A stretch of DNA of 50,109 bases from a virus. A program made the translations under genes and the position numbers. Below, piece by piece: positions 3,231-47,442 of this stretch (positions are counted from its first letter, which is position 1; each line of letters begins with the position of its first letter). The stretch lies in IMG/VR virus record IMGVR_UViG_3300025383_000034, positions 1 to 50,109 of that record; one strand, written 5' to 3'. A model generated the notes under the pieces. The model was given only the letters and a program-made list of their open reading frames with translations, ran no database searches and was not told where the DNA came from.

Positions 3231-3997
3231 TACGCAATGTCTCCAATCAAGGTGAAGGTGTTGGTTGCTACGCAGATAATGGTTGCAGCCGAGTATTGGG
3301 TACGCAGCTTGGTGCCTGTACCCGTAAAGGTTGATGTGCCGTCGTTGGCTACGGTTACCTGACCTGCGCCAGTTTGCTGGATGTTGACGGCTTGACCGAC
3401 GCTAAACACACCCGATGGGATAGTCAGGGTAATTGAGCCAGTATTGTAGAGCGTTACCAGCTTGGCTGCGTCAGCAGCTACAAGGGTGTAACTCGTACCA
3501 GTCTGAGCATTAATGCCCATGCTGATAACTGGCGAGGTAAGAACCGCTGAGCCGATGGTTGGGGCTGTGCCAAATACTGCCGATCCAGAGCCTGTCTCAT
3601 CTGGCAGCAAGGCTGCCAAGTTAGCCGAGGTTGGAGTTGTTAAGAATGTGCCAAGGGCACCCGTAATACCGTGTACGCCATTAGGGCCAGAGCCGATGTG
3701 CGCTCCAGCATCTGTCATATCCTGAGCTGTAATCACGTGACGGACAACAGCACCAGAGTTGTGAGCCTGAGCAGTGGTTCCGTTAAAGCCACGCTGAACC
3801 GTCAGGGTCAAACCTGAAATGTTGGTAACGAGTACCAGCTCTTCGGCAGAGGTGTTGTAGTCAACAGCAAGCACAAATGGAAAGCTGCCTGGGTAACCTA
3901 CAGTAGCTCCAACCACCATGGTGGTGGCAGAGTTAGTCATCGCCGAAGTGAGCGTCGTATCCTGCGCCGTAGCGCTGTAATATCTATTTTGTGCCAT
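3230..3997 (-). CDS. Tail fibre-like structural protein (255 residues)
   Basis: The N-terminal part (about 1-90) carries LTSAMTNSATTMVV and LVTNISGLTLTVQRGFNGTTAQAH, a pattern common at the base of phage fibre proteins. A Gly/Pro linker follows (GPNGVHGITGALG), then a C-terminal beta module shared with the 118-residue neighbour. The mix of an attachment domain and a variable-type tip suggests a fibre or its adaptor. It lies just downstream of the connector-like gene. An identical copy lies at 45209-45976. Confidence 0.75.
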   Translation of the reverse strand: MAQNRYYSATAQDTTLTSAMTNSATTMVVGATVGYPGSFPFVLAVDYNTSAEELVLVTNISGLTLTVQRGFNGTTAQAHNSGAVVRHVITAQDMTDAGAHIGSGPNGVHGITGALGTFLTTPTSANLAALLPDETGSGSAVFGTAPTIGSAVLTSPVISMGINAQTGTSYTLVAADAAKLVTLYNTGSITLTIPSGVFSVGQAVNIQQTGAGQVTVANDGTSTFTGTGTKLRTQYSAATIICVATNTFTLIGDIA

Positions 3998-4006
3998 CTG
4001 CCTGCC

Positions 4007-4897
4007 TTAGCGAGAGTAGTGTGTGCGTGGTGGATATTGTTCTTGCTGGCGACGAATTTCCACCTGCAAGCGTTGCTGGTACATCTGATAGAAATAGCGA
4101 GACATGTTGGTAGCAGAGCCAACTGGGTTGGACTGTTGCTGCGCATCCGCTTCAGCGGTGATGGCTGGGATACGGCCCATGTCAATATAGGCAGCTGAGC
4201 GATACGCTGCGCCAAGGATGATTACTTCACGGCACGACTCTGGCAAACCAGTCAATGTAAAGTCATCGTTATCGTTTTGTAGCTGAGTAGGCTTTTTGGT
4301 GTAGACAACCTGAACAGTACGACCTGGGATAATTCCATCGGAGATGGAGATAGTCTTGCCGCTGTTCCACGCTAGTGGGTTAGCTGTACGGTCAATGCGG
4401 TAGTGGCGAACTGGTAGCCATTCTAAAGAAGGCCCGATGGTCTGCCACGATACTGCCAAAGCGTCGATAGCTTCCTGCGGTAGCTGGTAGGTAGTACGAG
4501 CTGCAATGAATGGGAAGGTTGTGTAGTACACGCCAAACAAGTCTGGATAGATAGCGTCAATCGCTTCGTTAATATCCTTACGGATCATGGCCCGTGGGAA
4601 TGAAGGAGTGATGGTAACGCGTGTACCCGCAGTGTGTGGCACTGGGGTTGTATCTCTAAAACCACGACCATATGGCGGAATGGTCGCAGTGTTGGTGGTG
4701 CGGTCAAACGAGTCAACCCAGATTAGCTCTTCGTCAATTTCGACAATACCGCGTGTAAGGACTGTTCCATCGGCTACCGTAAAGGTAGTCGCTGTGGCAC
4801 TTAGGTCCGCAGTAAGGAATGTGGCTTGGTCCTGGCGAGAGGTATAGCCTGTGAGGGCTAGTGCCGTCTCATCAATTAAATCAGAGAATAAAGTCAC
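4007..4897 (-). CDS. Head-tail connector / adaptor-like protein
   Basis: The 296-residue protein begins MTLFSDLIDETALALTGY and has a beta-rich insertion (TFTVADGTVLTRGIVEIDEE) and a helical middle (MIRKDINEAIDAIYPDLF). It also carries the segment ESCREVIILGAAYRSA and ends in a Gln/Arg-rich helix. This helical-bundle-plus-tail layout fits adaptor proteins below the portal (the P22 gp4 or T7 gp11 role). The assignment is inferred from architecture and gene order. The GTG start overlaps the upstream stop by four bases. Identical copy at 45986-46876. Confidence 0.6.
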   Translation of the reverse strand: MTLFSDLIDETALALTGYTSRQDQATFLTADLSATATTFTVADGTVLTRGIVEIDEELIWVDSFDRTTNTATIPPYGRGFRDTTPVPHTAGTRVTITPSFPRAMIRKDINEAIDAIYPDLFGVYYTTFPFIAARTTYQLPQEAIDALAVSWQTIGPSLEWLPVRHYRIDRTANPLAWNSGKTISISDGIIPGRTVQVVYTKKPTQLQNDNDDFTLTGLPESCREVIILGAAYRSAAYIDMGRIPAITAEADAQQQSNPVGSATNMSRYFYQMYQQRLQVEIRRQQEQYPPRTHYSR

Positions 4898-5178
4898 GAT
4901 GCAATCCTTGCTGCTGCTTCTGCCTCGCCAATACCGTAGGTACCAGCCAGTGCGTTTAATACGCCAGGTGTGTCTAACTTGAGGTTCACTCCGCCATTGC
5001 GGTAAGCGTAAATCTGGTTGAGTGCGTCAATACCACGGGTTGCATTGTGGCCAGGGATGACAGCGTCAGCCCATTTTACGCAAGCACCGTTAAAGTCGTA
5101 CTGAGGTACGCCGTTGATAATAGTGCCAGCTAAACGGTTGATGTGATACACCGTAGACAACCCGCCGTAATTTGCCAT
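4894..5178 (-). CDS. Small structural protein of unknown role
   Basis: The 94-residue protein opens MANYGGLSTVYHINRLAG and has GIDALNQIYAYRN and LDTPGVLNALAGTYGIGEAEAAARIAS. It has no transmembrane segment or catalytic motif. The operon position immediately before the connector-like gene and the coupled start suggest a virion or assembly protein. Identical copy at 46873-47157. Confidence 0.7.
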   Translation of the reverse strand: MANYGGLSTVYHINRLAGTIINGVPQYDFNGACVKWADAVIPGHNATRGIDALNQIYAYRNGGVNLKLDTPGVLNALAGTYGIGEAEAAARIAS

Positions 5179-5346
5179 TTACTTGCCTTTCTTGGAATGG
5201 TATTTCTTTGTAGCCTTAACACCAGCGGCAATGGTCTTAACTCCAGCCACTTTGGTTAGGTCAATAACTTTGCCACTCTTATGCTTGACAACCACATCTT
5301 TGGTAATGGTGTGAGTCTTACCACCAACCTTGATTGTCTTTGCCAT
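5179..5346 (-). CDS. Basic 55-residue protein, DNA-binding-like
   Basis: The ORF starts at ATG 5346 (overlapping the upstream stop by one base) and stops directly before the next start. The product is dominated by Lys, Thr and Val: MAKTIKVGGKTHTITKDVVV at the start and KKYHSKKGK at the end. The strong positive charge suggests contact with nucleic acid, perhaps a minor virion DNA-packing protein. No known family is recognised. Identical copy at 47158-47325. Confidence 0.7.
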   Translation of the reverse strand: MAKTIKVGGKTHTITKDVVVKHKSGKVIDLTKVAGVKTIAAGVKATKKYHSKKGK

Positions 5347-5462
5347 TACTTAGTGCCGCCTACGCCCTTATATTCGCCATAAGGAGTTTTGGTTGGCTTG
5401 CCAGTGAGCTTCTCGTCAAGCTTGCCAATGGCGTTCTTATCGCAGCCACATTCTTTGCACAT
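5346..5462 (-). CDS. Cys-containing 38-residue miniprotein
   Basis: The ORF from ATG 5462 encodes MCKECGCDKNAIGKLDEKL and ends KGVGGTK. A CxxCxC motif at residues 2-7 could bind a metal. A longer upstream extension would overlap the previous gene in another frame, so 5462 is the better start. It is tightly packed between two basic small proteins. Identical copy at 47325-47441. Confidence 0.65.
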   Translation of the reverse strand: MCKECGCDKNAIGKLDEKLTGKPTKTPYGEYKGVGGTK

Positions 5463-5463
5463 A

Positions 5464-5634
5464 TTACTTACCTTTAACTTTCTTGAGGTTTGGGTTTTTC
5501 TTCTTTGCTGCTGGACTTGCATTACGAGCGCCAGCTGCAAGAATTGCACCAGCGTTCTTCATAGGAATACCTTGCTTCTTAGAAATAGACTTTGCCGCTG
5601 CGGCAAAACCCATACCCTTTTTTGCTGCTGCCAT
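5464..5634 (-). CDS. Basic Ala/Lys-rich 56-residue protein
   Basis: Starting at ATG 5634 (TAATG overlap with the previous stop), the product begins MAAAKKGMGFAAAAKSISKK, includes AGAILAAGARNASPAAKKK and ends KKVKGK. Its histone- or protamine-like composition is consistent with binding DNA in the virion. Function unknown. Identical copy at 47443-47613. Confidence 0.7.
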   Translation of the reverse strand: MAAAKKGMGFAAAAKSISKKQGIPMKNAGAILAAGARNASPAAKKKNPNLKKVKGK

Positions 5635-6030
5635 TAGAGCGCACCAACTTCCTTCATAGTGTTTGCGAGTGGTTTATCTATCTTTGATGCGGCTGGCATA
5701 TACTCTGCGTTGTACGCCGTACCAAGCTTGTCACTAGCAGCCTTAGCTTCCTGGACTGCCTTCATGGTTGTGCCTGCTGGCTGAATACCTTGTGAGCGAG
5801 CATCCGCGTAGGCGTTCAGCTCTGCGTTCCACTTCTTGTTGCTCATGCTGTCAGCTCGGCCAGCATCGCCTGTGCTTAGCTCTAGTGTGCGGAGCTTGCA
5901 GCCAAAGCAGCCATCGATATAATCAGTATGGTTAAGATGATCCGATGGTGTTTCTTCAACCACTGGCGGAGTTGTGAAAACTTCGTCGCATCCAGTGCAA
6001 CCATATTCAACGGGAATAGAGTTGTAACTC

Positions 6031-9094
<3,064 letters not shown>

Positions 9095-20485: not shown

Positions 20486-22261
20486 TTAGGCTGGTGAGCG
20501 TCTGGATAATGACGCAGCAAGCTGCGGCGATCCAGAAGATGATAGGCCAGCGAGTAGAGATTGCAAAGCAGAGCCACCTTGGCCTTGTTGTGGGGCAGGC
20601 ATACCCATTGGTGGTTGCCCAGGTTGCTGTCCTGGTGCTGGCTGAGCTTGCTCTTCTCCTGGCTGTGGTGCAGGTGCAGGTTCTGGAGCAAATGCTTTAG
20701 TGATAATTTCTTCAATAGGGTTGCCGTTCTGGCGGCCCTGAATAACTTTTGCTATTGCTGTAATGACCTTGGATGGGTCACCACCCTGCATGGCAATTTG
20801 TGGAAGCGCATTAGCATAAGAAGCAACGGCAGCCATCAGGCTGTCGCGTAATTCCTCTACTTCAACGCGCTCTTCTTCTTGGGTGACGTTCATTTCCCAC
20901 GGCATTTGACGACGCAAAAAGTCGCGTGAGATAAGCTTATCGCCACGGGCTTGCAAGCCGAACACCAATGCACGGTTTGGATCAAGACCAGCCATCAAAC
21001 CGTAGGTCACATCGCAGGAGTAATCTCCCTTAATATCTTCCTTTGGAGTGTAGGTAATGGCATAAGGAGCGCCAGCGTTAATGCCGCGTACTTCCTTAGT
21101 AGCATCACCAAAGAGCTTCTCGTCCATCATAAAGCAAAGACGGATAACTTCCTTAAATGTCTCAGCAAAGACAGCTTGCGCAGTCTTGACCTGAGTATCA
21201 AAGCCACCCATGAGTGCCTGTACGCCACGACCAGTGACGATAGAACCTGACTGCTGACCAAGGCGGCCTTCTGGATAACGTGAACCAGTGCGCATTTCTT
21301 GGTCAAGAATTTCATTCTCTTGGAAAATGCCAGGTGGGATGTTTAGATCCACACGACGAATCTGCTGTGGGTTGGCAGAGCGAATAGTCGCATCTGGGCC
21401 AATCTCCAGAACGTTAACATCTGATGGCAAAGCAAATGGTGCCTGTACTGCCTTCTGCGCTGCTTCTAGCGAGAGTGACGCGAAGCGGGCACGGGCAACC
21501 TGTACCCACATAATGTCATCGAACTGTCCACGCTGATGCTCGTCTGAGTCAACACCTGGACGGAGCGCGATAGCGACAGGAATTTCACCAAGGTCATTAG
21601 CAACCTTTGAAAGAACAAAGTTGTTACGCTCTGGCAAGAACAGGACGAGCTGTTCCTTATCTTGGTAGCGATACATCTCCAGCATGCGCTCAGAGTTGCG
21701 GTTCTCGTACTGACCACGGATGATATTCTCATGTTCAGGAAAGTCGTTAATCAATTCACGGACTGTCTTGATGTAGCGCTTGCTGTAGGAGATGAGCTTA
21801 CCAAAGCGGTCAAACTCTGGGTATGCTCCAATAGGCGAGTCAATGCGAATCATTGGTCGCTTGTTCTCGTAGTCAGCTTCAATCAAAAATGGAAGAAAAC
21901 CAAAAGTCAAGTAACGGTCAGCACCTGAGTACATCAAGGTCTGAAGGTTGCATGTGTCGCGGTAGCCAGCGGCAATCATGGTGCGCTTGTCGGCACGACG
22001 GCGGGCTGCATCCGAGACGGTATTAGTCGTCATGCAGTTGAAGGCAGGAAGAGGCGCAATAACTTCAGCAACGTCGCGAGCTGCAACGTCAATGAAGTTA
22101 GCAATCATTGGCTTTGGATAGTCCTCAGAGAACATGCCAGGGAATACCTGGTCAAGCTTGCCCTGACGGATAGCCAGCAGATCATCATAGCGAGTATCGC
22201 GAGCGTAGTAATGCGCACGAAGCTTTTTGAGCTTGTCCGAGATTACGTCAATCTCTAGCAC
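20486..22261 (-). CDS. Portal protein
   Basis: The GTG start at 22261 overlaps the terminase stop by one base. The 591 residues have the look of a podovirus portal: ISDKLKKLRAHYYARDTRYDDL at the start in pieces, then ARDVAEVIAPLPAFNC, a region with IRIDSPIGAYPEFDRFGK, and DDIMWVQVARARFASLSLEAAQ. A Pro/Gln-rich, probably disordered C-terminus begins near residue 500. The protein would form the dodecameric ring through which DNA is packaged and to which the adaptor attaches. Placement right after the terminase supports this. Confidence 0.85.
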   Translation of the reverse strand: MLEIDVISDKLKKLRAHYYARDTRYDDLLAIRQGKLDQVFPGMFSEDYPKPMIANFIDVAARDVAEVIAPLPAFNCMTTNTVSDAARRRADKRTMIAAGYRDTCNLQTLMYSGADRYLTFGFLPFLIEADYENKRPMIRIDSPIGAYPEFDRFGKLISYSKRYIKTVRELINDFPEHENIIRGQYENRNSERMLEMYRYQDKEQLVLFLPERNNFVLSKVANDLGEIPVAIALRPGVDSDEHQRGQFDDIMWVQVARARFASLSLEAAQKAVQAPFALPSDVNVLEIGPDATIRSANPQQIRRVDLNIPPGIFQENEILDQEMRTGSRYPEGRLGQQSGSIVTGRGVQALMGGFDTQVKTAQAVFAETFKEVIRLCFMMDEKLFGDATKEVRGINAGAPYAITYTPKEDIKGDYSCDVTYGLMAGLDPNRALVFGLQARGDKLISRDFLRRQMPWEMNVTQEEERVEVEELRDSLMAAVASYANALPQIAMQGGDPSKVITAIAKVIQGRQNGNPIEEIITKAFAPEPAPAPQPGEEQAQPAPGQQPGQPPMGMPAPQQGQGGSALQSLLAGLSSSGSPQLAASLSRRSPA

Positions 22262-24162
22262 TATAAGTACCCCCCGTTAGCCGCTTGCTGTTCTTGTCGT
22301 CGTTGATATTCTTCTAGGTTAATCACCTTGCGATTTTCATTCTGCCATCTGGTAGCAAAAGGATTTTTCACAAAGGAGTGGCCGTAAGCACCCGCCTGGT
22401 TGATGTAGTCACGCATCTGCGTTTCCGCGAACCAGAGGGCCATGCAGCCGTCTTGCTTATTTTTAGTGCCAGGTGCCCACGTGATGAGCTGCTCTATGAG
22501 CGACTTAATGCCTTCATTGTCGGACCGTGGCAAATCTATAAGGTTGTTCTTTATGTGCGCACCAAGCTTGTCCATGGTGCCGAACAGTGGTGCCATTGAG
22601 GCAACACCAAACTCAGCGTCCATCTTGTTCGCACCTGTATAGTGCTGAACGAGGCGTATTCCGCGTGAAGCAAGGAAGCGGTTAATCTCTTCGTCCATGG
22701 TGAGGAACAACTGAAATGCGTTCTTCTCAATCACCCAGACCGATGGACGATACTTGTCCGTCCATTCAAAGATCAACTCGCGAATACGCTGGGGCGTAGG
22801 AGCTGGCATGCGTGATGCTTCTAGGATGTACCGCTTGCCTGTCGTCTTGTCGCCTGAGTAGGCGATGGAGAATGTATCTCCCGACATAGCTGGGTCCATA
22901 GAGCAGATGGTGTAGCTGCTGCCTAAATGTTGCGGGTGACCAGGCGCACCTGGTAGCAAAGGCCCAATGGCTCGCATGCCCGATACGGAACCGCGAACAC
23001 ACTCAGCCGAAAAGACTGCTTCGCTTTCCACGTCTTGCTGCTGGTAGACCATGGCCCATGTCTTTGGGTCAAGAACACCGCGACGCTTGCGTAGGTTATG
23101 TCCATCCCAGCGCGGATACAAACCGTCTGGCCCGATATTCGCATCGTCGCCTAACCACGGCTTGTCGCTTCGTGGCCATAGGGTAACCCAATCCTTTGGG
23201 TCATCGGCAAATTCAAGAACCGCTGGCATAGCCAAGTATGTCCATGGCGATGTGCCATCTGGATAACGGTCAGGGTTACGCATCTCGCGATATAGGTCAA
23301 TCGGATCGACGCGAGTACCCACGACAAGAATCTTGCCTGTGGGACCGACACGGGTTAAAACTTCCTGTTGTATCCAGCGAATCTGCTTTTCGTATTCGTT
23401 GGCGTTAGCCAAGGTCACGCAGTCGTCCAGAACAATCAAGTCAGCACGCGCACCGTAAATCTGTCCGCCGATGCCCAGCGCTTGTAGCGTAGGGTCTTTT
23501 TCACCCGAGTCGCGCTCTAGGTAAATCGCATCCTGCGTCCACTTATCTGCCGCTTCTTTGTAACCATCGGCAGGAGCATAACGACGCTGCAACTCAGCGT
23601 AGGCTGGTTGAGTCAGGCGCTGCTTGACAGCGTAGAGAAAGTCCTTAGCCATTGTCAAGGTCTTGGAAACAATCTTGATACGGATGTTCGGATCTATACA
23701 GATACGGTAGGTGATGTAGTCGATAGAGACAGTCATCGACTTGGCATGCTCAGGGGGCATGTTCACCAGGACGTAGTTGGGAAAGCCCTCTTCATAGGTC
23801 ATGCTGGGGTGAACCCACGCAGGCTTGCCTTCTTCCAACATTGAGATAATGTTGCGCTGGTGGTCAAAGGTCTTGGAGTTGAGGTACTTGGCCCGAAAGT
23901 CCTCAAAGCTGATGGACGCGTCTTCGTCGCTAATCACGCCGTCTCGGCGCTGGACGGCGCGAGCTAGGTCAACCGCCTCTTTGAATTGCGCGTCTGAGGC
24001 GCGGTAGTACTCATAGGACTTGATGGACTTACCTGTAGCCTTAACAGCATCTGCGATGCTGTAGCCCTTGGTAATCATCTCAACGATGACCTGCTTGGCC
24101 TGGCTGGCCGAGATAGTTGAGTCTGGCGCGATCTTGTACTTATTCGCCGATGGCTTAGCCAT
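22261..24162 (-). CDS. terL: Large terminase with built-in N-terminal helix-turn-helix
   Basis: The start at ATG 24162 (MAKPSANKYK) is preferred over an ATG nine bases upstream. Residues about 25-70 form a homeodomain-like helix-turn-helix (VIVEMITKGYSIADAVKATG, then YEYYRASDAQF), the kind usually found in small terminases. The ATPase follows, with a degenerate Walker A (MPPEHAKS near 135) and Walker B (LIVLDDC). The C-terminal RNase H-like nuclease shows its three acidic sites in SMDPAMSGDT, VWVIEKNAF and NKQDGCMALW. It pumps DNA into heads. No separate small terminase gene was recognised, so the N-terminal domain may recognise the packaging site. Confidence 0.92.
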   Translation of the reverse strand: MAKPSANKYKIAPDSTISASQAKQVIVEMITKGYSIADAVKATGKSIKSYEYYRASDAQFKEAVDLARAVQRRDGVISDEDASISFEDFRAKYLNSKTFDHQRNIISMLEEGKPAWVHPSMTYEEGFPNYVLVNMPPEHAKSMTVSIDYITYRICIDPNIRIKIVSKTLTMAKDFLYAVKQRLTQPAYAELQRRYAPADGYKEAADKWTQDAIYLERDSGEKDPTLQALGIGGQIYGARADLIVLDDCVTLANANEYEKQIRWIQQEVLTRVGPTGKILVVGTRVDPIDLYREMRNPDRYPDGTSPWTYLAMPAVLEFADDPKDWVTLWPRSDKPWLGDDANIGPDGLYPRWDGHNLRKRRGVLDPKTWAMVYQQQDVESEAVFSAECVRGSVSGMRAIGPLLPGAPGHPQHLGSSYTICSMDPAMSGDTFSIAYSGDKTTGKRYILEASRMPAPTPQRIRELIFEWTDKYRPSVWVIEKNAFQLFLTMDEEINRFLASRGIRLVQHYTGANKMDAEFGVASMAPLFGTMDKLGAHIKNNLIDLPRSDNEGIKSLIEQLITWAPGTKNKQDGCMALWFAETQMRDYINQAGAYGHSFVKNPFATRWQNENRKVINLEEYQRRQEQQAANGGYL

Positions 24163-24205
24163 ACATCTCACCTACCCTAAATATCCCGCCGCGACTAGCG
24201 CGCGG

Positions 24206-24379
24206 CCTATGGGTCATCAACCTACGGTTGGTAACCTGACGGGGCGGCTATGCCGACCCTATGGTAATCCCTATGGAAATAACTTAGGGGGCTGGGCGCA
24301 GCCCTGCCTGTGGAAAACGATATACCTATGGTCATATATATGATCTATACATACCCAAGCTCCGCTTGGTTACCATAGG
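24206..24379. repeat. Cluster of five CCTATGG iteron-like repeats
   Basis: CCTATGG occurs at 24206-24212, 24258-24264, 24270-24276 and 24325-24331, and inverted (CCATAGG) at 24373-24379. Two copies extend to CCCTATGGNAAT. Between them are perfect hairpins, for example 24289-24304 (GGGCTG/CAGCCC) and 24355-24369 (CCAAGC/GCTTGG). The cluster is gene-free and lies just outside the terminase start. It could be a replication origin, a packaging site or an operator array. Confidence 0.6.
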
Positions 24380-24388
24380 TTTATTTAA

Positions 24389-24408
24389 GGGGGCGTAGCC
24401 CCCGTTTT
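24389..24408 (+). terminator. Strong hairpin terminator in the control region
   Basis: A perfect GGGGGC/GCCCCC stem (24389-24394 and 24398-24403) with a GTA loop is followed by GTTTT on the plus strand. Rightward it fits a terminator. On the minus strand, in the leader of the terminase transcript, it lacks a good T-run and could act as an attenuator or processing site. Confidence 0.55.
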
Positions 24409-24490
24409 AGCTGTCGGGTTTTTTCCATGCTTACAAAACCCTCTATATATATTAAGGGTCAAAAAACTTGTTTTGTCCCGCTTTTATTTC

Positions 24491-24506
24491 TGTGAATTAC
24501 ATCACA
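24491..24506. promoter_or_regulatory. Crp/GlxR-type operator
   Basis: TGTGA-ATTACA-TCACA is a perfect palindromic-half match to TGTGA-N6-TCACA, the binding site of cAMP-receptor family regulators, including the TA in the centre preferred by corynebacterial GlxR. It lies between candidate divergent promoters in the gene-free control region. A host cAMP-responsive regulator could act here; this is inferred from the motif alone. Confidence 0.6.
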
Positions 24507-24536: not shown

Positions 24537-24551
24537 CAGAAAAAAGATTTT

Positions 24552-24580
24552 TGTCACATTGGCCCGCAGATCCTATATTT
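24552..24580 (+). promoter_or_regulatory. Candidate rightward promoter (TTGTCA-N17-TATATT)
   Basis: The -35 TTGTCA at 24552-24557 and -10 TATATT at 24575-24580 are 17 bases apart. It would transcribe a long leader towards 25017. A weak hairpin followed by TTTTT at 24635-24668 could attenuate it. Identified by pattern only. Confidence 0.4.
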
Positions 24581-24599
24581 AGAAAAAATTGTTTGGTTG

Positions 24600-24629
24600 A
24601 TAGTAATACATAGTCACACTCACTGTTAA
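24600..24629 (-). promoter_or_regulatory. Candidate leftward promoter for the structural operon
   Basis: Minus-strand TTAACA (24624-24629), an 18-base spacer and TACTAT (24600-24605). It would start a leader of about 430 bases that carries the inverted repeat, the Crp-like box, the hairpins and the CCTATGG cluster before the terminase. Weak match at the -10, so tentative. Confidence 0.35.
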
Positions 24630-24944: not shown

Positions 24945-24973
24945 TTGACACGCCTACACGGTAGGCGCATAAT
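24945..24973 (+). promoter_or_regulatory. Rightward promoter whose spacer is a perfect palindrome
   Basis: TTGACA (24945-24950), exactly 17 bases, then CATAAT (24968-24973): a near-consensus vegetative promoter. The whole spacer is an inverted repeat, CGCCTAC-ACG-GTAGGCG, which is where a repressor or spacer-binding activator would sit. It lies 44 bases before the first rightward gene, whose AAGGAG is at 25003-25008. This is the best promoter in the window. A 14-base piece (ACACGCCTACACGG) recurs inside that gene at 25119-25132. Confidence 0.75.
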
Positions 24974-27250: not shown

Positions 27251-27333
27251 TTGTCGTTATTCTGGCCTTTGTAGCTACACTCGCAGGCGTTGCCCTGGAG
27301 TTTGCCCTATCGTCGCGGGAGAGCGACGAGTGA
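27247..27333 (+). CDS. Membrane peptide (28 residues)
   Basis: ATGA overlap with the upstream gene and GTGA overlap with the WhiB gene. Residues 1-20 (MIVVILAFVATLAGVALEFA) form a single membrane span followed by a short charged tail. Its tight coupling to both neighbours argues that it is real. Confidence 0.55.
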   Translation: MIVVILAFVATLAGVALEFALSSRESDE

Positions 27334-27749
27334 TATTTAACTACGACCTACCCGCAGCATGTCGGGATATGGACGGCGATATATGGTTCCCAGAGGCTAT
27401 CCGCGTGAACGTGGGAGAAAAGCCAAAGCCAAAGTCGCAGGACATTATTGACACAACTATCCTGGCATTAGCTATCTGTAACACGTGCCCTATCCAACAG
27501 ACCTGCCTTCAGGCAGCCATAGATAACCGCGATGAGCATGGCATATGGGGCGGAACTTTCCCCTATGAACGCCACACCGTAGCGCCATATGAAAAGACCA
27601 TGGATCTTGGTTTTATCTGGCAATCAAAGCTACGCAAATTCGCAGAACAGAAAGGCTTAGTATGTCCACCACTCCCCGCACCAACGCCAGGGTATGCACC
27701 CGCAGAAAGTTTCTCTGCATTTCTCCCCTTATTGTCCTTGTCGTTATGA
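27330..27749 (+). CDS. WhiB-family regulator 1
   Basis: WhiB-like proteins are actinobacterial [4Fe-4S] proteins that bind the main sigma factor and steer transcription. Here the four cluster cysteines are at residue 11 (PAACRDMDG) and in ICNTCPIQQTC near residues 49-59, followed by the turn HGIWGGTFPYERH. The DxD-type segment MDGDIWFPE is also typical. The C-terminus is longer than usual and overlaps the next gene by 88 bases. Phage WhiB proteins can block host WhiB2 (known for mycobacteriophage TM4); the same role here is inference. Confidence 0.9.
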   Translation: MIFNYDLPAACRDMDGDIWFPEAIRVNVGEKPKPKSQDIIDTTILALAICNTCPIQQTCLQAAIDNRDEHGIWGGTFPYERHTVAPYEKTMDLGFIWQSKLRKFAEQKGLVCPPLPAPTPGYAPAESFSAFLPLLSLSL

Positions 27750-28102
27750 GCTGGATTAGTTTTTCCGTCAAGCCCGTGGCAGAGCGTATAGCAAGCCCTA
27801 AGAGCTACGCTAAGACCCTTTACAAGCGACAGGGTGGAACCGCTAAGCAGTGGGCCTGCCTAAATCGTCTATGGACCATGGAAAGTAATTGGCGCGTGAA
27901 CGCTGTCGGTGACAAGACAACCCAGGGCAGAGCTATCGGCATTGCGCAAGCGCTACCAGCAGAGAAGATGGCGCAGATGGGCAGCGATTACAAGGTGAAC
28001 TACCAGACCCAGATTCGTTGGGGCTTGTTGTATATCAAGCTGCACTGGAATAACGATTCATGTCTCGCGCTACGCCATGAGATACGCAAGGGGTGGTACT
28101 GA
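27662..28102 (+). CDS. Membrane-anchored lytic transglycosylase-like protein
   Basis: Residues 17-36 (LCISPLIVLVVMSWISFSV) form a signal anchor after a basic N-terminus. The domain starts QWACLNRLWTMESNWRVNA, with the catalytic Glu in the MESNW motif, then GIAQALPAEKMAQMG and TQIRWGLLYIKLHW. This is the small transglycosylase/lysozyme-like fold of actinobacterial resuscitation and aggregation-promoting-type proteins, which cuts peptidoglycan. It lies in the early operon between two WhiB genes rather than with the lysis genes. It could remodel the wall, block superinfection or help export; its role is unclear. Confidence 0.8.
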   Translation: MSTTPRTNARVCTRRKFLCISPLIVLVVMSWISFSVKPVAERIASPKSYAKTLYKRQGGTAKQWACLNRLWTMESNWRVNAVGDKTTQGRAIGIAQALPAEKMAQMGSDYKVNYQTQIRWGLLYIKLHWNNDSCLALRHEIRKGWY

Positions 28103-28368
28103 TGGATGAGCTATATTATCCTGCCATCGACCCAGCGGATGAGCTATGGAAAGACCAAGCTAATTGCGTTGGCATAGATACTGACCTATTCTTTACCAGC
28201 GGCGAAGGCCAAGGCGACGATCGGGACACTAAGAACCTGACTCGTATCTGCGCTGCTTGCCCCGTGAAGATAGAGTGTCTGGACTATGCTGTAAAGTATA
28301 GCCAGCTTGGTTGGTGGGGTGGAACTACCGAAGCAGAACGCAAACGTATTCGTAGAAAGGCACGATAA
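28102..28368 (+). CDS. WhiB-family regulator 2
   Basis: The start at ATG 28102 follows AAGGGG; an upstream GTG would add three residues. The 88-residue protein has its first cluster Cys in QANCVGIDTDLFF, the remaining three in RICAACPVKIEC, and the canonical GWWGGTTEAERKRIRRK end, which is the WhiB turn plus a basic DNA-contact tail. It is a complete WhiB of normal length, unlike the first. Having both suggests two separate effects on host or phage promoters. Confidence 0.92.
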   Translation: MDELYYPAIDPADELWKDQANCVGIDTDLFFTSGEGQGDDRDTKNLTRICAACPVKIECLDYAVKYSQLGWWGGTTEAERKRIRRKAR

Positions 28369-29351: not shown

Positions 29352-29531
29352 CTATCGCTTGGGATTATCAGTGGAGTAAAAACCACCAGCGTTGAACTTA
29401 ATAGGCACTACGCCAAAGACCTTGGACATAGGAATACCGCAGCACAATGGCGCTGCAATGTCATCATGGATAGAGCCTTCTACTTCTGTTTCAATGTTGC
29501 AGATACTGCAACGGTAATCATACTTCGGCAC
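29352..29531 (-). CDS. FmdB-like zinc-ribbon protein (59 residues)
   Basis: The GTG start at 29531 gives a protein beginning PKYDYRCSICNIETEVEGSI, with a second Cys pair in LCCGIPMSKVFG and the ending FNAGGFYSTDNPKR. This is the pattern of the FmdB family of single zinc ribbons, found widely in bacteria and actinophages and thought to bind nucleic acid or regulators. It overlaps the end of the sigma-factor gene by 14 bases and is the last gene of the leftward operon. Confidence 0.8.
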   Translation of the reverse strand: MPKYDYRCSICNIETEVEGSIHDDIAAPLCCGIPMSKVFGVVPIKFNAGGFYSTDNPKR

Positions 29532-30159
29532 TACTCTTCCTCTCCCATGGATCCTGTCCGCCTAGCTCTTTAATCAAGCGCTTTAGCGCGCTTTTAATTC
29601 TACGCTCAGAAGATGAGCGAGAGATATGCAACGACTCTGCAATATCCTCAAAGCTCAACTGCTCCTGGAACTTCATCTGCAATATCAACTGGTCATCTGG
29701 CTCTAGCTTGGCAAGCGCCTTGCGCACATCGAAGATAGAGATAATGTAGTTGCCACCCTCGCTAGGGTTACCACCACCACTGACCTTAGCCTTGGTTGGA
29801 TCCTGCGTAGGAACACTGTCTGACCAGACAAAGGGAAGCAACTCGCCAAGAACCTCAGCAGAATAGAACGCTTCGTCTCTTAATTCGTATCCCGCCGCTT
29901 GCGCTTTAGCTCGTCGGCAATACTTATCAGCATGGCGTTGCAAAGTTTTGGCCAGATACTTAACACCAGTGCGGTAATCTTCAGTATCTTGCGGATGATC
30001 AAGCCATTCCTTGACCTTGTTCTCACGGCGTAAGACCCAGACCAGGCACTCTTGTCTAACATCCGCAACATCAAAGTAAGTGTGGTATTTCTTGTGTACC
30101 TGCCGCGCAACAGTCTTTGCAATATCTTGTGCTTCATATAGCCACGTTTCGTTGGTCAA
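29518..30159 (-). CDS. Sigma-70-type RNA polymerase sigma factor
   Basis: The 213-residue protein has a region-2-like part (DVADVRQECLVWVLRRENK), a linker rich in Gly, and a region 4 with a clear helix-turn-helix (LEPDDQLILQMKFQEQLSFE, then DIAESLHISRSSSERRI). It resembles short sigma factors seen in actinophages. It would direct host RNA polymerase to phage promoters, probably the late ones. It is near the end of the middle operon, suitably placed to switch to late genes (inference). It overlaps the next gene by four bases. Confidence 0.85.
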   Translation of the reverse strand: MTNETWLYEAQDIAKTVARQVHKKYHTYFDVADVRQECLVWVLRRENKVKEWLDHPQDTEDYRTGVKYLAKTLQRHADKYCRRAKAQAAGYELRDEAFYSAEVLGELLPFVWSDSVPTQDPTKAKVSGGGNPSEGGNYIISIFDVRKALAKLEPDDQLILQMKFQEQLSFEDIAESLHISRSSSERRIKSALKRLIKELGGQDPWERKSSAEV

Positions 30160-39852: not shown

Positions 39853-42132
39853 TTAGAGGTTAGTGGTACGGAATTGGATGTAGCAAATACCGCCAAATCC
39901 TTTGAAGCGACGGTCAGGTGGTGACATGCGAACAAAGGAGAGTGAGTCGATAACTCCCTGGACCGTTTCGTTTGTTGTAAAATCTTGCAGAACAACTACG
40001 TCTCCATTTGACTCAATGTTTTCCAGGGCGAACAATCTTTCGGCTGCATAGCCTTCATAGCCAAGGGCCATGTTGTAACGGTCCTGCTCAAAGTCATAGA
40101 CAAGAACGGGAACGTTGATAGAACGCTCACGACGTACAGCAGGTACGGCCTTGAGCTGATAGCCATTGAGTGTGCTGCCATGTAAGCCATCGCTGGTGCG
40201 ATAGAGCGTGAACCTAAAGCCAAGTGACTCAAGGGGCACGTCAATACCAGTGGTAATGTCTTGAGTTAGATCGTAGTTTTCGTCGATAGTTAAAAGGTCG
40301 TTGACATAAAGTGTTGGGTCAACGCTAGAGACTTTAACCTTGCCAGTAACAGGCGTGGTGATACGAGCCTTAATGAGCTTGAAGTGCTTGTCTTCCAAGG
40401 TAAGGTAGCGAATCTGACCAGTCTGGATATAGCCACTGGAGACAAGCTGACCCGATGAATTGGAGTTGGTTGGGTCTGTCTGAATATATACACCCTTGCC
40501 CTGGATGCTAAACATCATGCGGTTGGACTTGCCATAGACGGCAACATCCTGCGCAGTTCCTGTAACGCCAGCAGGCGCACGAAGGTTGGTGGCGTAAGCC
40601 ACTTGGTTAGCAGCAATTTCTTTGCCAAGGTCAAGCTTGACTAGGCCAGAAGACTTAGTGCCATCTCCGTTGTCGATATAGTTGCTAACGGTGCAATAGG
40701 CAAAGCGGTCATTAAAGGCAACATAGTTCACCCAGCCGTCAGTTCCCGATGGGGTGAGGTAGCTAGCAGTAGCTGGATCATAGCCCTGGGTAATAACAGT
40801 CATTGGGCCATAGGTAACATAACCAGAAGAGACAAAGCCTGACGTGTCGATAGTTCCTACACGCACACCACGGTTAGTTCCAAAGACCATGTACTTGCCA
40901 ACATACGAACCAAGGCTAAGGATAATCTCGCCACGTGGCATGTCAGCAGCAGTCAGTGCCTTGTTGAGCAATGGCACTGCGCCTGTTGTATCAAGGGAAA
41001 GACGATACACGCTAGACACATCACCAACATAGCCGCTGACATAGATGGCGTTAGGGCCTTCGCATACGCCAGTCCATACCCACTTGGCATTAGTGTGAGC
41101 GTAGATGGGGGTTGTGTTGTTTGTAGAAAGAACGATAGAGCCAGTGGCTGAGTTGTTCGGAGCCACGTTGGCGTTCTGGATATTTAGCGCTACCTGGTAA
41201 GGGGTAGGAACATCTAGTACTTCCCATGTGCCGTTGTAAGGAGAGCCAACGGATGAGACGGTAACCAATGATCCAGTGGTGAAATTGTGTACGCCAGAGG
41301 TAGTAATGACAGCTACGTTGCCTGTATAAGACATGCTGGCGTTGCTGTATGGTCCAAGCACTGTGCCAGTGACGGTGTAGCTGGTGATGGGGGTAATCTC
41401 AAAGAGGTAGTTATTTACGCCAGCGATAAGACGCTGCTTGACCCAGTTCATTTTCACGTTGGTAACAGTGCCAGTGTTGGCAGTTGGGTGAGTAAAGACT
41501 AATGTGCCACTGGTGCTGAGAGTCAGCGGGCCTTTGTAAATACCTGTAGCGTTAGCAACATAGTAATAGGTTCCATCGTGGGCAATGTCAAAGATTGCGC
41601 TAGAGCCACCCCATGTAACAGAGGTAGGGGCAGAGCCTTGTGTTACCTTGTAGACCGATGAGCCATCAGCAATAAGAGAAAAGTCATTGGTGCCATCGTT
41701 GCCACCTTCCATCATAATGTTGGTGCCGCTGCTGGAATACAGCAGGTCAACATCAGGGAGCAGGTCAACGCGACCAGTGTTAAATACTTCTACGCCAGCA
41801 GATTTGTTAAAGCGCAGGTTAACCGTGTCGCCTTCAACTGGCTCTTCGTAGCGAATACCAGCGCCATAATGGAAGCTAGACTGAGCGCGTAGCCACCAGC
41901 CAGTGAGTGTCTGCTCACCAGGCTCTTTCTGCATATCGACCTGTTGCTTACGGTACTGCGCAGTTTCGCGCTTGTAAGGGTACTTGTCGTTAATGCCAAA
42001 AAAGAATGGCAGGCCAGCAATGGCGCAGTCAAAGTTGTTGGATGTATTGACAAAGGTGTTGCCCGCCGTACTTGGTTGACCAATAGGATCCGCAGGGCGT
42101 TCTGCAATGTGCCGAAAACCGTCTAGTGCCAC
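39853..42132 (-). CDS. Large tail protein, beta-propeller/nozzle-like (allele B)
   Basis: The GTG start at 42132 gives 759 residues: an N-terminal arm with FDCAIAGLPFFFGINDKYPY, then repeated strand units such as SGTNIMMEGGNDGTNDFSLI, FDIAHDGTYYYVANATGIYK and VSGYVGDVSSVYRLSLDT. The C-terminal part has a second beta domain ending PDRRFKGFGGICYIQFRT. Repeats of this sort form a beta-propeller, as in podovirus tail nozzles or hub proteins. Allele A of its N-terminus is at 1-102. It probably forms the tube below the adaptor. Confidence 0.68.
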   Translation of the reverse strand: MALDGFRHIAERPADPIGQPSTAGNTFVNTSNNFDCAIAGLPFFFGINDKYPYKRETAQYRKQQVDMQKEPGEQTLTGWWLRAQSSFHYGAGIRYEEPVEGDTVNLRFNKSAGVEVFNTGRVDLLPDVDLLYSSSGTNIMMEGGNDGTNDFSLIADGSSVYKVTQGSAPTSVTWGGSSAIFDIAHDGTYYYVANATGIYKGPLTLSTSGTLVFTHPTANTGTVTNVKMNWVKQRLIAGVNNYLFEITPITSYTVTGTVLGPYSNASMSYTGNVAVITTSGVHNFTTGSLVTVSSVGSPYNGTWEVLDVPTPYQVALNIQNANVAPNNSATGSIVLSTNNTTPIYAHTNAKWVWTGVCEGPNAIYVSGYVGDVSSVYRLSLDTTGAVPLLNKALTAADMPRGEIILSLGSYVGKYMVFGTNRGVRVGTIDTSGFVSSGYVTYGPMTVITQGYDPATASYLTPSGTDGWVNYVAFNDRFAYCTVSNYIDNGDGTKSSGLVKLDLGKEIAANQVAYATNLRAPAGVTGTAQDVAVYGKSNRMMFSIQGKGVYIQTDPTNSNSSGQLVSSGYIQTGQIRYLTLEDKHFKLIKARITTPVTGKVKVSSVDPTLYVNDLLTIDENYDLTQDITTGIDVPLESLGFRFTLYRTSDGLHGSTLNGYQLKAVPAVRRERSINVPVLVYDFEQDRYNMALGYEGYAAERLFALENIESNGDVVVLQDFTTNETVQGVIDSLSFVRMSPPDRRFKGFGGICYIQFRTTNL

Positions 42133-42148
42133 TTACTCTCCCTAATCG

Positions 42149-42170
42149 TAAAGGCCGCCCGAAGGCGGCC
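42149..42170 (-). terminator. Rho-independent terminator, allele B
   Basis: GGCCGCC (42153-42159) and GGCGGCC (42164-42170) pair perfectly with a CGAA loop; the minus strand continues with TTTAC. It holds the same position as the unrelated stem at 129-152, so the function is kept while the sequence is not. Confidence 0.75.
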
Positions 42171-42253
42171 TATCCAAACCAAATACTTAATTCTTCAACC
42201 TTGCGGATTTTGTCCTCTGTGTCGTACAGAACAACAGTATCCTCTGGATCCAT
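42170..42253 (-). CDS. 27-residue ORF found only in allele B
   Basis: ATG 42253 follows directly after the stop of the alanine-rich gene (TAAATG), and the frame ends inside the terminator stem. The peptide MDPEDTVVLYDTEDKIRKVE ends LSIWFG. Allele A has no counterpart at 153-169. It is a candidate coupled micro-gene; short length makes chance possible. Confidence 0.45.
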   Translation of the reverse strand: MDPEDTVVLYDTEDKIRKVEELSIWFG

Positions 42254-42478
42254 TTACGCTGTCAGCGCTGCCACTTCGTCGGCGGTTAAGCCGAGAGCGG
42301 TGAGCTTGGCGATTGCCGCTGCTTTTGCATCTGCCTTAGCCTTCTCTGCTGCATCAGCGGCTGCCTTGTCAGCGGCGGCTTGTGCGGCTGCTGCCTCGGC
42401 TGCTGCAATTTCTTCAGCGGTTTGTGGGCGAGTGGTGGTAATTCCAGTCTCGCAATTAATCTCAATAACATCAGCCAT
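42254..42478 (-). CDS. Small alanine-rich coiled-coil protein (allele B)
   Basis: 74 residues, the same as at 170-394 except for a handful of changes near the N-terminus (MADVIEINCETGITTTRPQT here) and one Val-to-Ala. The identical Ala/Glu/Lys helix and C-terminus show strong conservation between two otherwise diverged neighbours. Confidence 0.75.
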   Translation of the reverse strand: MADVIEINCETGITTTRPQTAEEIAAAEAAAAQAAADKAAADAAEKAKADAKAAAIAKLTALGLTADEVAALTA

Positions 42479-42887
42479 TGCTGTTCTCCTTGTTCAGTAG
42501 GTGTGGTGCATACAACTCTAGTATTTCTAAAGCGTATTTAATTTTGTCTGGTATTCGTTGCCCTTTGGGCTGACGGGTATTCCATACCTCTAGGTTCTCG
42601 ATACGGTTATCCGCCCTATTGCCATTTATGTGGTGGACATTTTCCTCTGGCAATAATGTTCTTCCAAGATGCACTTCCATGAAGTGCCTGTGCTGGAGCA
42701 TACCTTTACCGTTGACTGTTATTTTGATATAGCCATCGGTTCCTGGTTTGGCGGTTCTAACCGTCACAAAGGTTGCATCTCCGTAACGGTGCCACCTATG
42801 GTAATGCTTCTTGCACATTCCCCAGGCGGCAACCTGTCTGCCGCACTGCTCTATCTGGCAGCCAGTCGTATCTTTAGGTTTTGGCAT
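42471..42887 (-). CDS. HNH homing-type endonuclease (allele B)
   Basis: From ATG 42887 (MPKPKDTTGCQIEQCGRQVA) the protein has 138 residues with one zinc-finger unit (CQIEQC, CKKHYHRWHRYGD) and the HNH core ENVHHINGNRADNRIENLEV. It is shorter and has one finger fewer than the HNH at 372-962. The last 25 residues and DNA are almost the same in both, so two different nucleases occupy the same site with a shared end. It overlaps the alanine-rich gene start. Confidence 0.85.
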   Translation of the reverse strand: MPKPKDTTGCQIEQCGRQVAAWGMCKKHYHRWHRYGDATFVTVRTAKPGTDGYIKITVNGKGMLQHRHFMEVHLGRTLLPEENVHHINGNRADNRIENLEVWNTRQPKGQRIPDKIKYALEILELYAPHLLNKENSNG

Positions 42888-42894
42888 AGCAGAA

Positions 42895-42924
42895 TTATAG
42901 ACCCTTAATCCGTACATCTGCCAT
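42895..42924 (-). pseudogene. Remnant 9-codon start (MADV...) ahead of the HNH gene
   Basis: AAGGAG and ATG at 42924 open a frame that reads MADVRIKGL and stops. The same ribosome site and MADV begin the alanine-rich gene downstream. This looks like the original start of that gene left behind when the HNH gene was inserted, the real gene now using a second copy. Alternatively it is a leader peptide for the HNH gene. Confidence 0.4.
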
Positions 42925-42933
42925 GATTGCTCC

Positions 42934-43449
42934 TTAGTGATTGGTAATGCCGTATAAGTAAAATGATGAGTACTGTACAAAGTTTCCAGAAGTGTTAACT
43001 ATAGTTACCCCATTGATCGCATAACTTGTAATCCATAATCCAGTTTGGATTGAAGAATAAGCAGTTGTTCCATTTGTCTCTAAAACACCATCCACGCTTA
43101 CTGATTTATTTGTAGTGGAAGTGTAATTTGGAATATATACATCATGGCTTGAAAATGTATTAAGTGTTGCGCTGGCACCATCAGCCGCATTTAAATAAAG
43201 ATTTGGGTTTGAATAGGTAGTTGGACTAGCGCCATTTCCTTCTAAACCTTTTGAACTTAAATTAGTGTCAGAAGTTGCACCATTAAAACGCAAATAAATT
43301 AAAGAATAGATATTTGCATTATCCCCTCGGGCTGAAATTTTAATTGCTAAATCGGTATAAGTTGTCGGAATGGATGAAAAAGTAATTGAAGAAACGGATG
43401 TTGCTCCGACTGTTTGACTCGCAATAAGATTATATGTTGAAGTTGCCAT
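42934..43449 (-). CDS. Tail-tip/fibre protein paralogue 1 (allele B)
   Basis: 171 residues with TYNLIASQTVGATSVSSITF at the start, SSIPTTYTDL and YSSFYLYGITNH at the end. The ends match the allele at 975-1502; roughly residues 35-150 do not align well. The pattern of constant anchor and variable middle is expected for a receptor-binding protein. Confidence 0.75.
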   Translation of the reverse strand: MATSTYNLIASQTVGATSVSSITFSSIPTTYTDLAIKISARGDNANIYSLIYLRFNGATSDTNLSSKGLEGNGASPTTYSNPNLYLNAADGASATLNTFSSHDVYIPNYTSTTNKSVSVDGVLETNGTTAYSSIQTGLWITSYAINGVTIVNTSGNFVQYSSFYLYGITNH

Positions 43450-43451
43450 AG

Positions 43452-43970
43452 TTACGCCGCCAAAATTCCGTAGAGGGTAAAGGTTGAGCCAGCGAGAATT
43501 GAACCACCAGAATAACTTGTTAAAGTTATGGCGTTAATTGCGGCGGTGCTACGCCACAGGCCAACTTCGGCACTTACGCCACGACCAGAAGCAGCAGCGC
43601 CATCTCTAAAAAGAAATGTTTTATAAGTACTTGTATTGGCGTAATTCATTAAATTTATTGTAGAAACATTGCCGCTATTTGTTGAATCGTTGCCATCGGA
43701 AGCATTTATTCTTATCCAGTTTTCGGCTTGTCGCCCACTACTGGCACTGCTTCCATTGCCAGCCAAAATTGTAACGCTATAATTACCACCAGTATCAACC
43801 GAACCGTTACCAACTTGCATATACAAAATTGTTCCAGCGGATGTATTTCCGTGATTACAAACCATTACCAAATCCGTATAAGTCGTTGGAATGGAAGTAA
43901 AGGAAACTGATGATGCGTTTGATGCAAGCGTCTGTGTTGCAATCGGTGTATATGTTGGTGCGCTAGCCAT
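43452..43970 (-). CDS. Tail-tip/fibre protein paralogue 2 (allele B)
   Basis: 172 residues, nine longer than the allele at 1503-1994. Shared blocks are YTPIAT, SIPTTYTDL, NYANTS, VGLWRS-AAIN and LYGILAA; the sequence between is different. Starts near the stop of the next paralogue with a two-base gap rather than the one-base overlap seen in allele A. Confidence 0.75.
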   Translation of the reverse strand: MASAPTYTPIATQTLASNASSVSFTSIPTTYTDLVMVCNHGNTSAGTILYMQVGNGSVDTGGNYSVTILAGNGSSASSGRQAENWIRINASDGNDSTNSGNVSTINLMNYANTSTYKTFLFRDGAAASGRGVSAEVGLWRSTAAINAITLTSYSGGSILAGSTFTLYGILAA

Positions 43971-43972
43971 AA

Positions 43973-44542
43973 TTATTTAACTCCATATAAAGCGAAGGAA
44001 GAATACTGCACATAAGGAGAATAGTCTGGAAGAATTGTAAAACTATTAATTGGGTCAGAAATATTTGATCCAGTCCCAGACTTAAACCATACGCCCGAAC
44101 CAATTTCTATTAAACCAGAACCATTAGCGTCTGTACCCATAAGGTACCGATGAGTTTTATATTTATTAGTATTTGTGTAATCAAGAATATCTACAACATT
44201 TGCAGAAAAATATCCCGAAGCTCCGCCGGAACCACCAAGCCAGCCACGAGTTTGAGAAGCGTAACCGTAGGCAGTAACCGCTGAACCATTACCTTGTAAC
44301 CAATGCTGAGAGTAGTTAGACCCTGTATCTCCATTAAATTGGATATTCATTCCGTCAGTAATAGCACCAGAACGACTTGTTTGCGCAATTATACGAAGTT
44401 GTAAGTGTGTATAAGTGCTTGGAATAGAAGAAAAAGTTATTGTGCTTGCCCCACCTGAACCAACGGTTTGCGTAGCAATCGAAGTGTAGTTACCACCCAA
44501 ATGCCCCGATATTCCAGAGGCTAATATGCCAGGTAGAATCAT
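43973..44542 (-). CDS. Tail-tip/fibre protein paralogue 3 (copy B)
   Basis: Same 189-residue protein as at 1994-2563, apart from one visible change (DPINSFTIL here, DPISSFTIL there). Sequence upstream of 44046 is diverging from copy A; from 44046 to 49562 the copies agree. Confidence 0.75.
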   Translation of the reverse strand: MILPGILASGISGHLGGNYTSIATQTVGSGGASTITFSSIPSTYTHLQLRIIAQTSRSGAITDGMNIQFNGDTGSNYSQHWLQGNGSAVTAYGYASQTRGWLGGSGGASGYFSANVVDILDYTNTNKYKTHRYLMGTDANGSGLIEIGSGVWFKSGTGSNISDPINSFTILPDYSPYVQYSSFALYGVK

Positions 44543-44895
44543 GCAATATCTCCAAGCACTAACCAAGTATTCGCAGCCGTCTGAATTGCAGAAGCGCCGC
44601 TGTACTGCACACGGGTCTTAGGAGCCGAAGCGGTTGAGCCATTGGAAACAATGGTTACGCCTGAGCCTTGAGTAATAGTCGTCTGGCCAGCGCCAGTCTG
44701 GGCAATGTTCAAGATAGTGCCGACTGGAAAAGCCACCGATGAGTTTGGTGGAATGGTGAAGGTGTTAGCCGATGCGTTGTTGATCGTAACAAGCGTATTG
44801 CTACCATCGCCAAGGACTGCGGTGTACGAAGCAGACTGGGCATTGACGTTGATGGTAGGCGAGACTGCGTTGTTATTGAGTAATGATACAGCCAT
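44539..44895 (-). CDS. Small beta-rich tail protein (copy B)
   Basis: Identical to the 118-residue protein at 2560-2916, with NIAQTGAGQTTI and the WLVLGDIA end shared with the 255-residue neighbour. Its role is the same: a probable distal tail component. Confidence 0.75.
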   Translation of the reverse strand: MAVSLLNNNAVSPTINVNAQSASYTAVLGDGSNTLVTINNASANTFTIPPNSSVAFPVGTILNIAQTGAGQTTITQGSGVTIVSNGSTASAPKTRVQYSGASAIQTAANTWLVLGDIA

Positions 44896-45209
44896 TAGAG
44901 CGTTACTCCTGTCGCAGTAAAGTCGGTGTTAGCCGTTGTGGAATACACTGAAAGTGTATCTCCAGTAGCTAACGTCCAGCCTGGGTTTTCGTGGATTGTG
45001 CTGTTGCCAGGTACGGTAAAACCGTAGTACTGGTAATAAGCCGATCCACCAGACTTAGTAATCGATACACGAATTGTATCAGATGATGAGCCTTTGTTGC
45101 AGACAGTAAATGAGGAAACAATGCTGCCGTTGGTGCTACCTGTGACAAGTGTTGTCAAGGTAGTAGCCGATGGCGTGGACTGTCCAAGAACGACGTATGC
45201 TGTTGCCAT
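44895..45209 (-). CDS. Small beta-rich tail/fibre protein (copy B)
   Basis: Identical to the 104-residue protein at 2916-3230, including the one-base overlaps with both neighbours. Probable small virion protein. Confidence 0.7.
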   Translation of the reverse strand: MATAYVVLGQSTPSATTLTTLVTGSTNGSIVSSFTVCNKGSSSDTIRVSITKSGGSAYYQYYGFTVPGNSTIHENPGWTLATGDTLSVYSTTANTDFTATGVTL

Positions 45210-45976
45210 TACGCAATGTCTCCAATCAAGGTGAAGGTGTTGGTTGCTACGCAGATAATGGTTGCAGCCGAGTATTGGGTACGCAGCTTGGTGCCTGTAC
45301 CCGTAAAGGTTGATGTGCCGTCGTTGGCTACGGTTACCTGACCTGCGCCAGTTTGCTGGATGTTGACGGCTTGACCGACGCTAAACACACCCGATGGGAT
45401 AGTCAGGGTAATTGAGCCAGTATTGTAGAGCGTTACCAGCTTGGCTGCGTCAGCAGCTACAAGGGTGTAACTCGTACCAGTCTGAGCATTAATGCCCATG
45501 CTGATAACTGGCGAGGTAAGAACCGCTGAGCCGATGGTTGGGGCTGTGCCAAATACTGCCGATCCAGAGCCTGTCTCATCTGGCAGCAAGGCTGCCAAGT
45601 TAGCCGAGGTTGGAGTTGTTAAGAATGTGCCAAGGGCACCCGTAATACCGTGTACGCCATTAGGGCCAGAGCCGATGTGCGCTCCAGCATCTGTCATATC
45701 CTGAGCTGTAATCACGTGACGGACAACAGCACCAGAGTTGTGAGCCTGAGCAGTGGTTCCGTTAAAGCCACGCTGAACCGTCAGGGTCAAACCTGAAATG
45801 TTGGTAACGAGTACCAGCTCTTCGGCAGAGGTGTTGTAGTCAACAGCAAGCACAAATGGAAAGCTGCCTGGGTAACCTACAGTAGCTCCAACCACCATGG
45901 TGGTGGCAGAGTTAGTCATCGCCGAAGTGAGCGTCGTATCCTGCGCCGTAGCGCTGTAATATCTATTTTGTGCCAT
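45209..45976 (-). CDS. Tail fibre-like structural protein (copy B)
   Basis: Identical to the 255-residue protein at 3230-3997: base-attachment part, Gly/Pro linker and the C-terminal module repeated in the 118-residue protein. Confidence 0.75.
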   Translation of the reverse strand: MAQNRYYSATAQDTTLTSAMTNSATTMVVGATVGYPGSFPFVLAVDYNTSAEELVLVTNISGLTLTVQRGFNGTTAQAHNSGAVVRHVITAQDMTDAGAHIGSGPNGVHGITGALGTFLTTPTSANLAALLPDETGSGSAVFGTAPTIGSAVLTSPVISMGINAQTGTSYTLVAADAAKLVTLYNTGSITLTIPSGVFSVGQAVNIQQTGAGQVTVANDGTSTFTGTGTKLRTQYSAATIICVATNTFTLIGDIA

Positions 45977-45985
45977 CTGCCTGCC

Positions 45986-46876: not shown

Positions 46877-47157
46877 GATGCAATCCTTGCTGCTGCTTCT
46901 GCCTCGCCAATACCGTAGGTACCAGCCAGTGCGTTTAATACGCCAGGTGTGTCTAACTTGAGGTTCACTCCGCCATTGCGGTAAGCGTAAATCTGGTTGA
47001 GTGCGTCAATACCACGGGTTGCATTGTGGCCAGGGATGACAGCGTCAGCCCATTTTACGCAAGCACCGTTAAAGTCGTACTGAGGTACGCCGTTGATAAT
47101 AGTGCCAGCTAAACGGTTGATGTGATACACCGTAGACAACCCGCCGTAATTTGCCAT
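46873..47157 (-). CDS. Small structural protein of unknown role (copy B)
   Basis: Identical to the 94-residue protein at 4894-5178, with the same GTGA overlap into the adaptor-like gene. Confidence 0.7.
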   Translation of the reverse strand: MANYGGLSTVYHINRLAGTIINGVPQYDFNGACVKWADAVIPGHNATRGIDALNQIYAYRNGGVNLKLDTPGVLNALAGTYGIGEAEAAARIAS

Positions 47158-47441: not shown

Positions 47442-47442
47442 A

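Follow-up and report, generated by a model that had tools for sequence, protein, structure and literature searches.

We suggest that the perfect palindrome TGTGAATTACATCACA, located at positions 24491-24506 of a viral DNA stretch of 50,109 bases (the whole of which is further called the window), is an operator for a Crp/GlxR-family regulator of the bacterial host, and that it quite probably works as a class I activator site at the promoter directed to terL, the gene of the terminase large subunit. Host Crp would bind TGTGAATTACATCACA at about -61.5 of this promoter and would help the host RNA polymerase to start from a -10 box, TATATA, that is accompanied by no consensus -35, whereby terminase and structural genes would be switched on. 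In Beephvirinae of the Streptomyces type host Crp would take the equivalent place at the late promoter, usually with two sites in tandem, whereas phages of the Planktophila type would use it at an early promoter. The site itself, its conservation and its spacing were observed directly; from these we infer that Crp binds and activates, and that cAMP may be required. Viral gene expression is, in this sense, probably tied to, or powered by, host Crp.

The operator, which as a palindrome is assigned to no strand, was annotated on the basis of its dyad match and of its conservation among window-like phages. The location and the ten-position Crp match given in the original prediction are exact: TGTGAATTACATCACA agrees with TGTGA-N6-TCACA at all ten positions, and 24491-24506 is the sole occurrence of this dyad in the 50,109 bases at up to one mismatch, as well as the single match, at up to two mismatches, to the pattern that includes a central TA. 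Ten fixed bases are expected by chance about 0.05 times per 50 kb window. The lower value quoted earlier, 0.003 per window for twelve fixed positions, is arithmetically correct; the central TA on which it depends was chosen post hoc. Across the whole collection the exact 16-mer occurs in 48 stretches, part of them from the phage family of the window, a count that tells little by itself. Taken by itself, the window copy is modest evidence and no proof of function, suggestive and not conclusive.

Conservation was analysed in three TerL-based collections, comprising window-like phages (clade A), E7-like phages (clade B) and Manuel-like phages (clade C). In clade A, where the loci counted (n=72) were those with 360 nt or more of sequence upstream of terL and up to one mismatch was allowed, the dyad is present upstream of terL in 71 loci, being perfect in 57, and 453 kb downstream of the terL start in the same loci contain no perfect copy. 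Among 49 distinct sequences the columns of the arms are 84-100% identical, nine of ten of them 98-100%, while the central six bases occur as 19 different hexamers, and this combination of near-invariant arms with variable centres means that the arms have been kept by selection. The central TA of the GlxR variant TGTGANNTANNTCACA is found in the window copy, but only 10 of the 41 distinct sites of clade A have T at position 8; not conserved among close relatives, it adds no weight to the chance estimate.

Closest among the records are E7 and F5, isolated phages of 'Ca. Planktophila' (OX376640/1, labelled 'Caudovirales sp. ct2KA10'), whose TerL is 47.6% identical to that of the window, and TerL of the Streptomyces Beephvirinae is 44-45% identical to it. 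A perfect site was found up to 1.1 kb upstream of terL in 40 of 55 loci of clade B (E7, F5 and relatives) and up to 700 nt upstream in 52 of 72 loci of clade C (Manuel, other Beephvirinae and relatives), so that the check for conservation in related phages, which the original prediction had proposed, has a positive outcome in every clade; in about a quarter of the loci of clades B and C the stretch searched contains no perfect site. Perfect copies are absent from 349 kb downstream of the terL start in clade B and from 321 kb in clade C, which makes none in 1.1 Mb of downstream DNA of the three clades pooled. These counts come from loci that are related within each collection, hence not independent. 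Since coding sequence makes up most of the downstream controls, the upstream regions were also scanned for all 5-base dyads (spacers 0-12), which were ranked by number of loci, and TGTGA with spacer 6 came first in clades A and C and second in clade B, after an AT-repeat dyad. On the strength of the conservation and the downstream controls a chance origin of the site is rejected. Clade C sites are usually tandem, with start-to-start distances mostly of 55-57 bp. A further perfect site of the Crp type is found in phage E7 at 1251-1266, where it precedes a small gene of the early side by about 77 nt.

In the window the site lies in a gap of about 850 nt which separates terL (22261..24171, minus strand; phrog_38, E=5.7e-64) from rightward small genes, including two for WhiB-like proteins. 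Probably starting with ATG at 24162, preceded by an AGGTGAG ribosome site, terL is the first gene of a leftward structural block with portal and tail genes, the portal protein being encoded downstream of it (20486..22261, minus strand; phrog_104, E=4e-22). Its leader of about 275 nt (about 24163-24440, minus strand) is rich in hairpins and carries CCATAGG-type repeats, found also in relatives; the leader alignment is too variable for a claim of covariation. Neither Rfam nor tRNA scanning gave a match in the window. On the plus strand a promoter-like TTGTCA-17-TATATT (24551..24579), with a TATATTTAGAAAAAA part conserved among clade A phages, and the element CTATATTTAGAAAAAAT...GGTKGATAGTA (24573-24605), strongly conserved in the same clade, both stand at varying distances from the Crp site. 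A strong promoter-like TTGACA-17-CATAAT (24945..24973, plus strand), about 440 nt from the site, directly precedes the first rightward gene (start 25016/25019).

The terL-ward promoter has its predicted -10 box, TATATA, at 24444..24449 (minus strand), within the conserved CCTTAATATATATAGAGG (24440-24457), and this box puts the predicted start at about 24437. Its spacing is practically fixed in clade A, with 39-40 nt from the end of the site to the start of the AT box in all but three of about 70 loci listed, whereas on the rightward side the conserved CTATATTTAGA box lies anywhere from about 45 to 132 away from the site. The original prediction regarded the site as a switch between two divergent promoters. 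What stands of it is a conserved Crp-type operator between terL with the structural genes and the divergent small-gene side; the switch itself is not supported for the clade of the window, given the variable rightward distance. As the near-fixed spacing concerns solely the terL-ward promoter, the site looks like one for class I activation of the promoter that serves the structural genes.

The value of about -61.5 for the dyad centre was derived by taking the hexamer whose end lies 47 nt away from the site, in alignment with the TATAAT of Streptomyces phages, and adding seven nt to reach the start; choice of the neighbouring hexamer would give about -59.5. The TATAAT-like boxes of Streptomyces-type phages are at a distance from the site equal to that of clade A, and in clade C it is the downstream member of the tandem that keeps the clade A distance from an TATATATATAAT-like box, the site centre falling in both clades at about -60 to -62 from the predicted starts. 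Clade B has no terL-ward box like that of A and C, and its site, judging from the spacings, is tied to the early promoter rather than to the terL-ward one: in 33 of 36 cases the start of early-side TTGAC[AT], in the opposite direction, is separated from the site by 11/12, 21/22 or 31/32 nt, which looks like the helical phasing expected for an activator touching the polymerase. The spacing thus agrees with that of class I Crp promoters (about -61.5, fixed or phased), for starts that are predicted, and the arrangement in each clade would be the one needed by an activator that contacts RNA polymerase.

The same geometry bears on two other functions of the site. Crp might act as a repressor, shutting off the late (or early) promoter as long as Crp-cAMP has not dropped or a phage factor has not displaced it, for which repression of pir in phage T1 by cAMP-CRP offers a precedent (PMC6737242), the true activator site being then possibly a second conserved dyad, described below. 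We consider it unlikely, since a position of about -61.5 at near-fixed distance, clear of the -35/-10 region, and the helical phase kept at several distances in clade B are both signatures of an activator. It is very improbable that the dyad serves as a signal for packaging or replication and resembles the Crp site only incidentally: it is indeed found upstream of terL, and in Beephvirinae about 300 nt or less from the genome end, but the spacing is near-fixed to the -10 box while terL lies at variable distances (260-350 nt in clade A, 240-1090 in clade B), and in clade B the phasing is to TTGACA.

Between the Crp site and the -10 box clade A has a second dyad, GCGGGAYAAA-N5-TTTRTCCCGC (24455-24481, minus strand; -42 to -17), whose first arm GCGGGACAAAA (24471..24481, minus strand), conserved in this clade, occupies -42 to -33, the expected -35 region; clade C has at the corresponding place a different dyad, of the TGTCC...GGAC type. 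These second dyads suggest a further factor, perhaps a phage sigma-like protein or WhiB, which in clade A may even be the main late regulator. A sigma-70-like protein with region 4 is encoded in the window (29518..30159, minus strand; PF08281, E=8e-11) and is a possible partner in late transcription. One may suppose that the Crp-type palindrome is itself bound by a phage-encoded regulator and not by host Crp, taking into account that WhiB proteins occur in all three clades, that the window has the sigma-like protein and that most phage proteins are unannotated. We find it improbable, as no cNMP-binding domain is encoded by the window, Manuel, E7 or F5, by a search in which C. glutamicum does match PF00027, and as the dyad, together with an extra base of the Streptomyces type, fits the host Crp consensus. 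A phage-encoded Crp is rejected on the same search of these four genomes. With no Crp in the phages examined, the ligand is presumably, and most likely, Crp of the host.

The host of the window phage is almost certainly an actinobacterium, as judged from the two WhiB genes. These genes, an actinobacterial host marker, are both on the plus strand, at 27330..27749 (domain 27354-27578; PF02467, E=1.2e-15) and 28093..28368 (domain 28147-28347; PF02467, E=1.4e-16), and PF02467 matches among 14 control genomes were confined to Corynebacterium, from which the host assignment follows. E7, F5 and Manuel have one WhiB domain each. The sole match in the genome collection is a 5.7-kb clade A contig within a betaproteobacterial MAG lacking WhiB, which has probably been misbinned.

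Crp is reported in Streptomyces, and the S. coelicolor Crp consensus is GTG(N)6GNCAC (PMC10033298). Its extra base is present in 51 of 55 clade C sites (30 of 33 distinct 16-mers; chance 0.46) and in 35 of 41 clade A sites; the window copy is without this extra C/G. C. glutamicum GlxR and M. tuberculosis CRP are able to act on E. coli CRP sites, and S. coelicolor Crp reportedly does not bind them (PMC5449483), which sits awkwardly beside the perfect TGTGA-N6-TCACA in Streptomyces phages. For the freshwater Nanopelagicales a literature search on Crp gave nothing useful.

Sensing of the host's carbon or energy state through Crp could be what the phage gains, as originally proposed, and Crp could also serve simply as an abundant activator. 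There is a considerable, though less than even, chance that host Crp is an abundant constitutive activator which replaces the -35 element and provides promoter strength and not information. The terL-ward promoter of clade A, with no TTGAC[AT] near the site and no recognisable -35, would depend on an activator; binding to DNA in the absence of cAMP is on record for some CRP orthologues at some promoters (PMC5449483); and late use in clades A and C versus early use in clade B fits the borrowing of a handy activator. Nothing decisive speaks against it; binding and activation are common to it and to the class I operator reading proposed above, from which it differs in cAMP dependence only. Rather tentatively, we may suggest that in a widespread lineage of lake and soil actinophages a cAMP-Crp gate on a key step of transcription has been kept while TerL diverged to about 45% identity, so that infection would advance or pause by the energy state of the host. 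The step so gated would be the structural genes in two of the groups and the early genes in the third.

Control of phages by Crp is already known from E. coli phage T1, whose pir, dam and recE promoters are under cAMP-CRP control (PMC6737242). The likeness lies in host Crp acting directly on phage promoters and coupling development to host metabolism, as it would do in our phages. In T1, which infects E. coli, CRP represses a regulator of lysis, whereas the phages described here have actinobacterial hosts, an activator-like placement of the site at the terL promoter, and conservation of the site across three phage groups. The site also resembles lac-type class I promoters of E. coli, with TGTGA-N6-TCACA at about -61.5 from the predicted start and a poor -35, and differs from them by belonging to a phage promoter with a TATATA/TATAAT box, by the second dyad in between and by tandem sites in clade C. 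With the actinobacterial regulons of C. glutamicum GlxR, M. tuberculosis CRP and S. coelicolor Crp it shares GTG-N8-CAC or, in most clade A and C sites, GTG(N)6GNCAC; the known targets of these regulons are host genes, and in the literature searched no phage promoter target of actinobacterial Crp/GlxR was found. The Planktophila phages LanE43-AprE7/AprF5 (PMC10202952) and the Streptomyces Beephvirinae Manuel, Immanuel3 and WRightOn have TerL 44-48% identical, WhiB and a Crp-type site upstream of terL, differing from the window in that E7 and F5 have the site tied to the early side and Beephvirinae have two tandem sites. No report of Crp sites in actinophages was found in the open literature, subscription papers being mostly outside its coverage, and as far as found such sites are apparently unreported.

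A host Crp box that belongs, conserved and at precise spacing, to the main promoter region of freshwater actinobacterial and Streptomyces phages offers a link, open to direct test, from the carbon or energy signalling of the host to the expression of lytic genes, for which laboratory systems exist (Streptomyces lividans with phage Manuel, and 'Ca. Planktophila' LanE-43 with E7/F5), and it provides a promoter model for annotation of phages of clades A, B and C. This phage family infects lake and soil actinobacteria, among which the freshwater hosts are abundant.

Positions 2068-7583 of the window are repeated at 44047-49562 as 5,516 identical bases with an offset of 41,979, and the preceding stretches (1-2000 versus 41980-43979) do not match. 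In our reading the genome is circularly permuted and about 42 kb long, and the record runs beyond one full length of it, probably joining two variants. A collagen-like tail fibre gene (7134-8750, minus strand) carries 9/18/27-nt repeats and varies between the two overlapping copies of the record.
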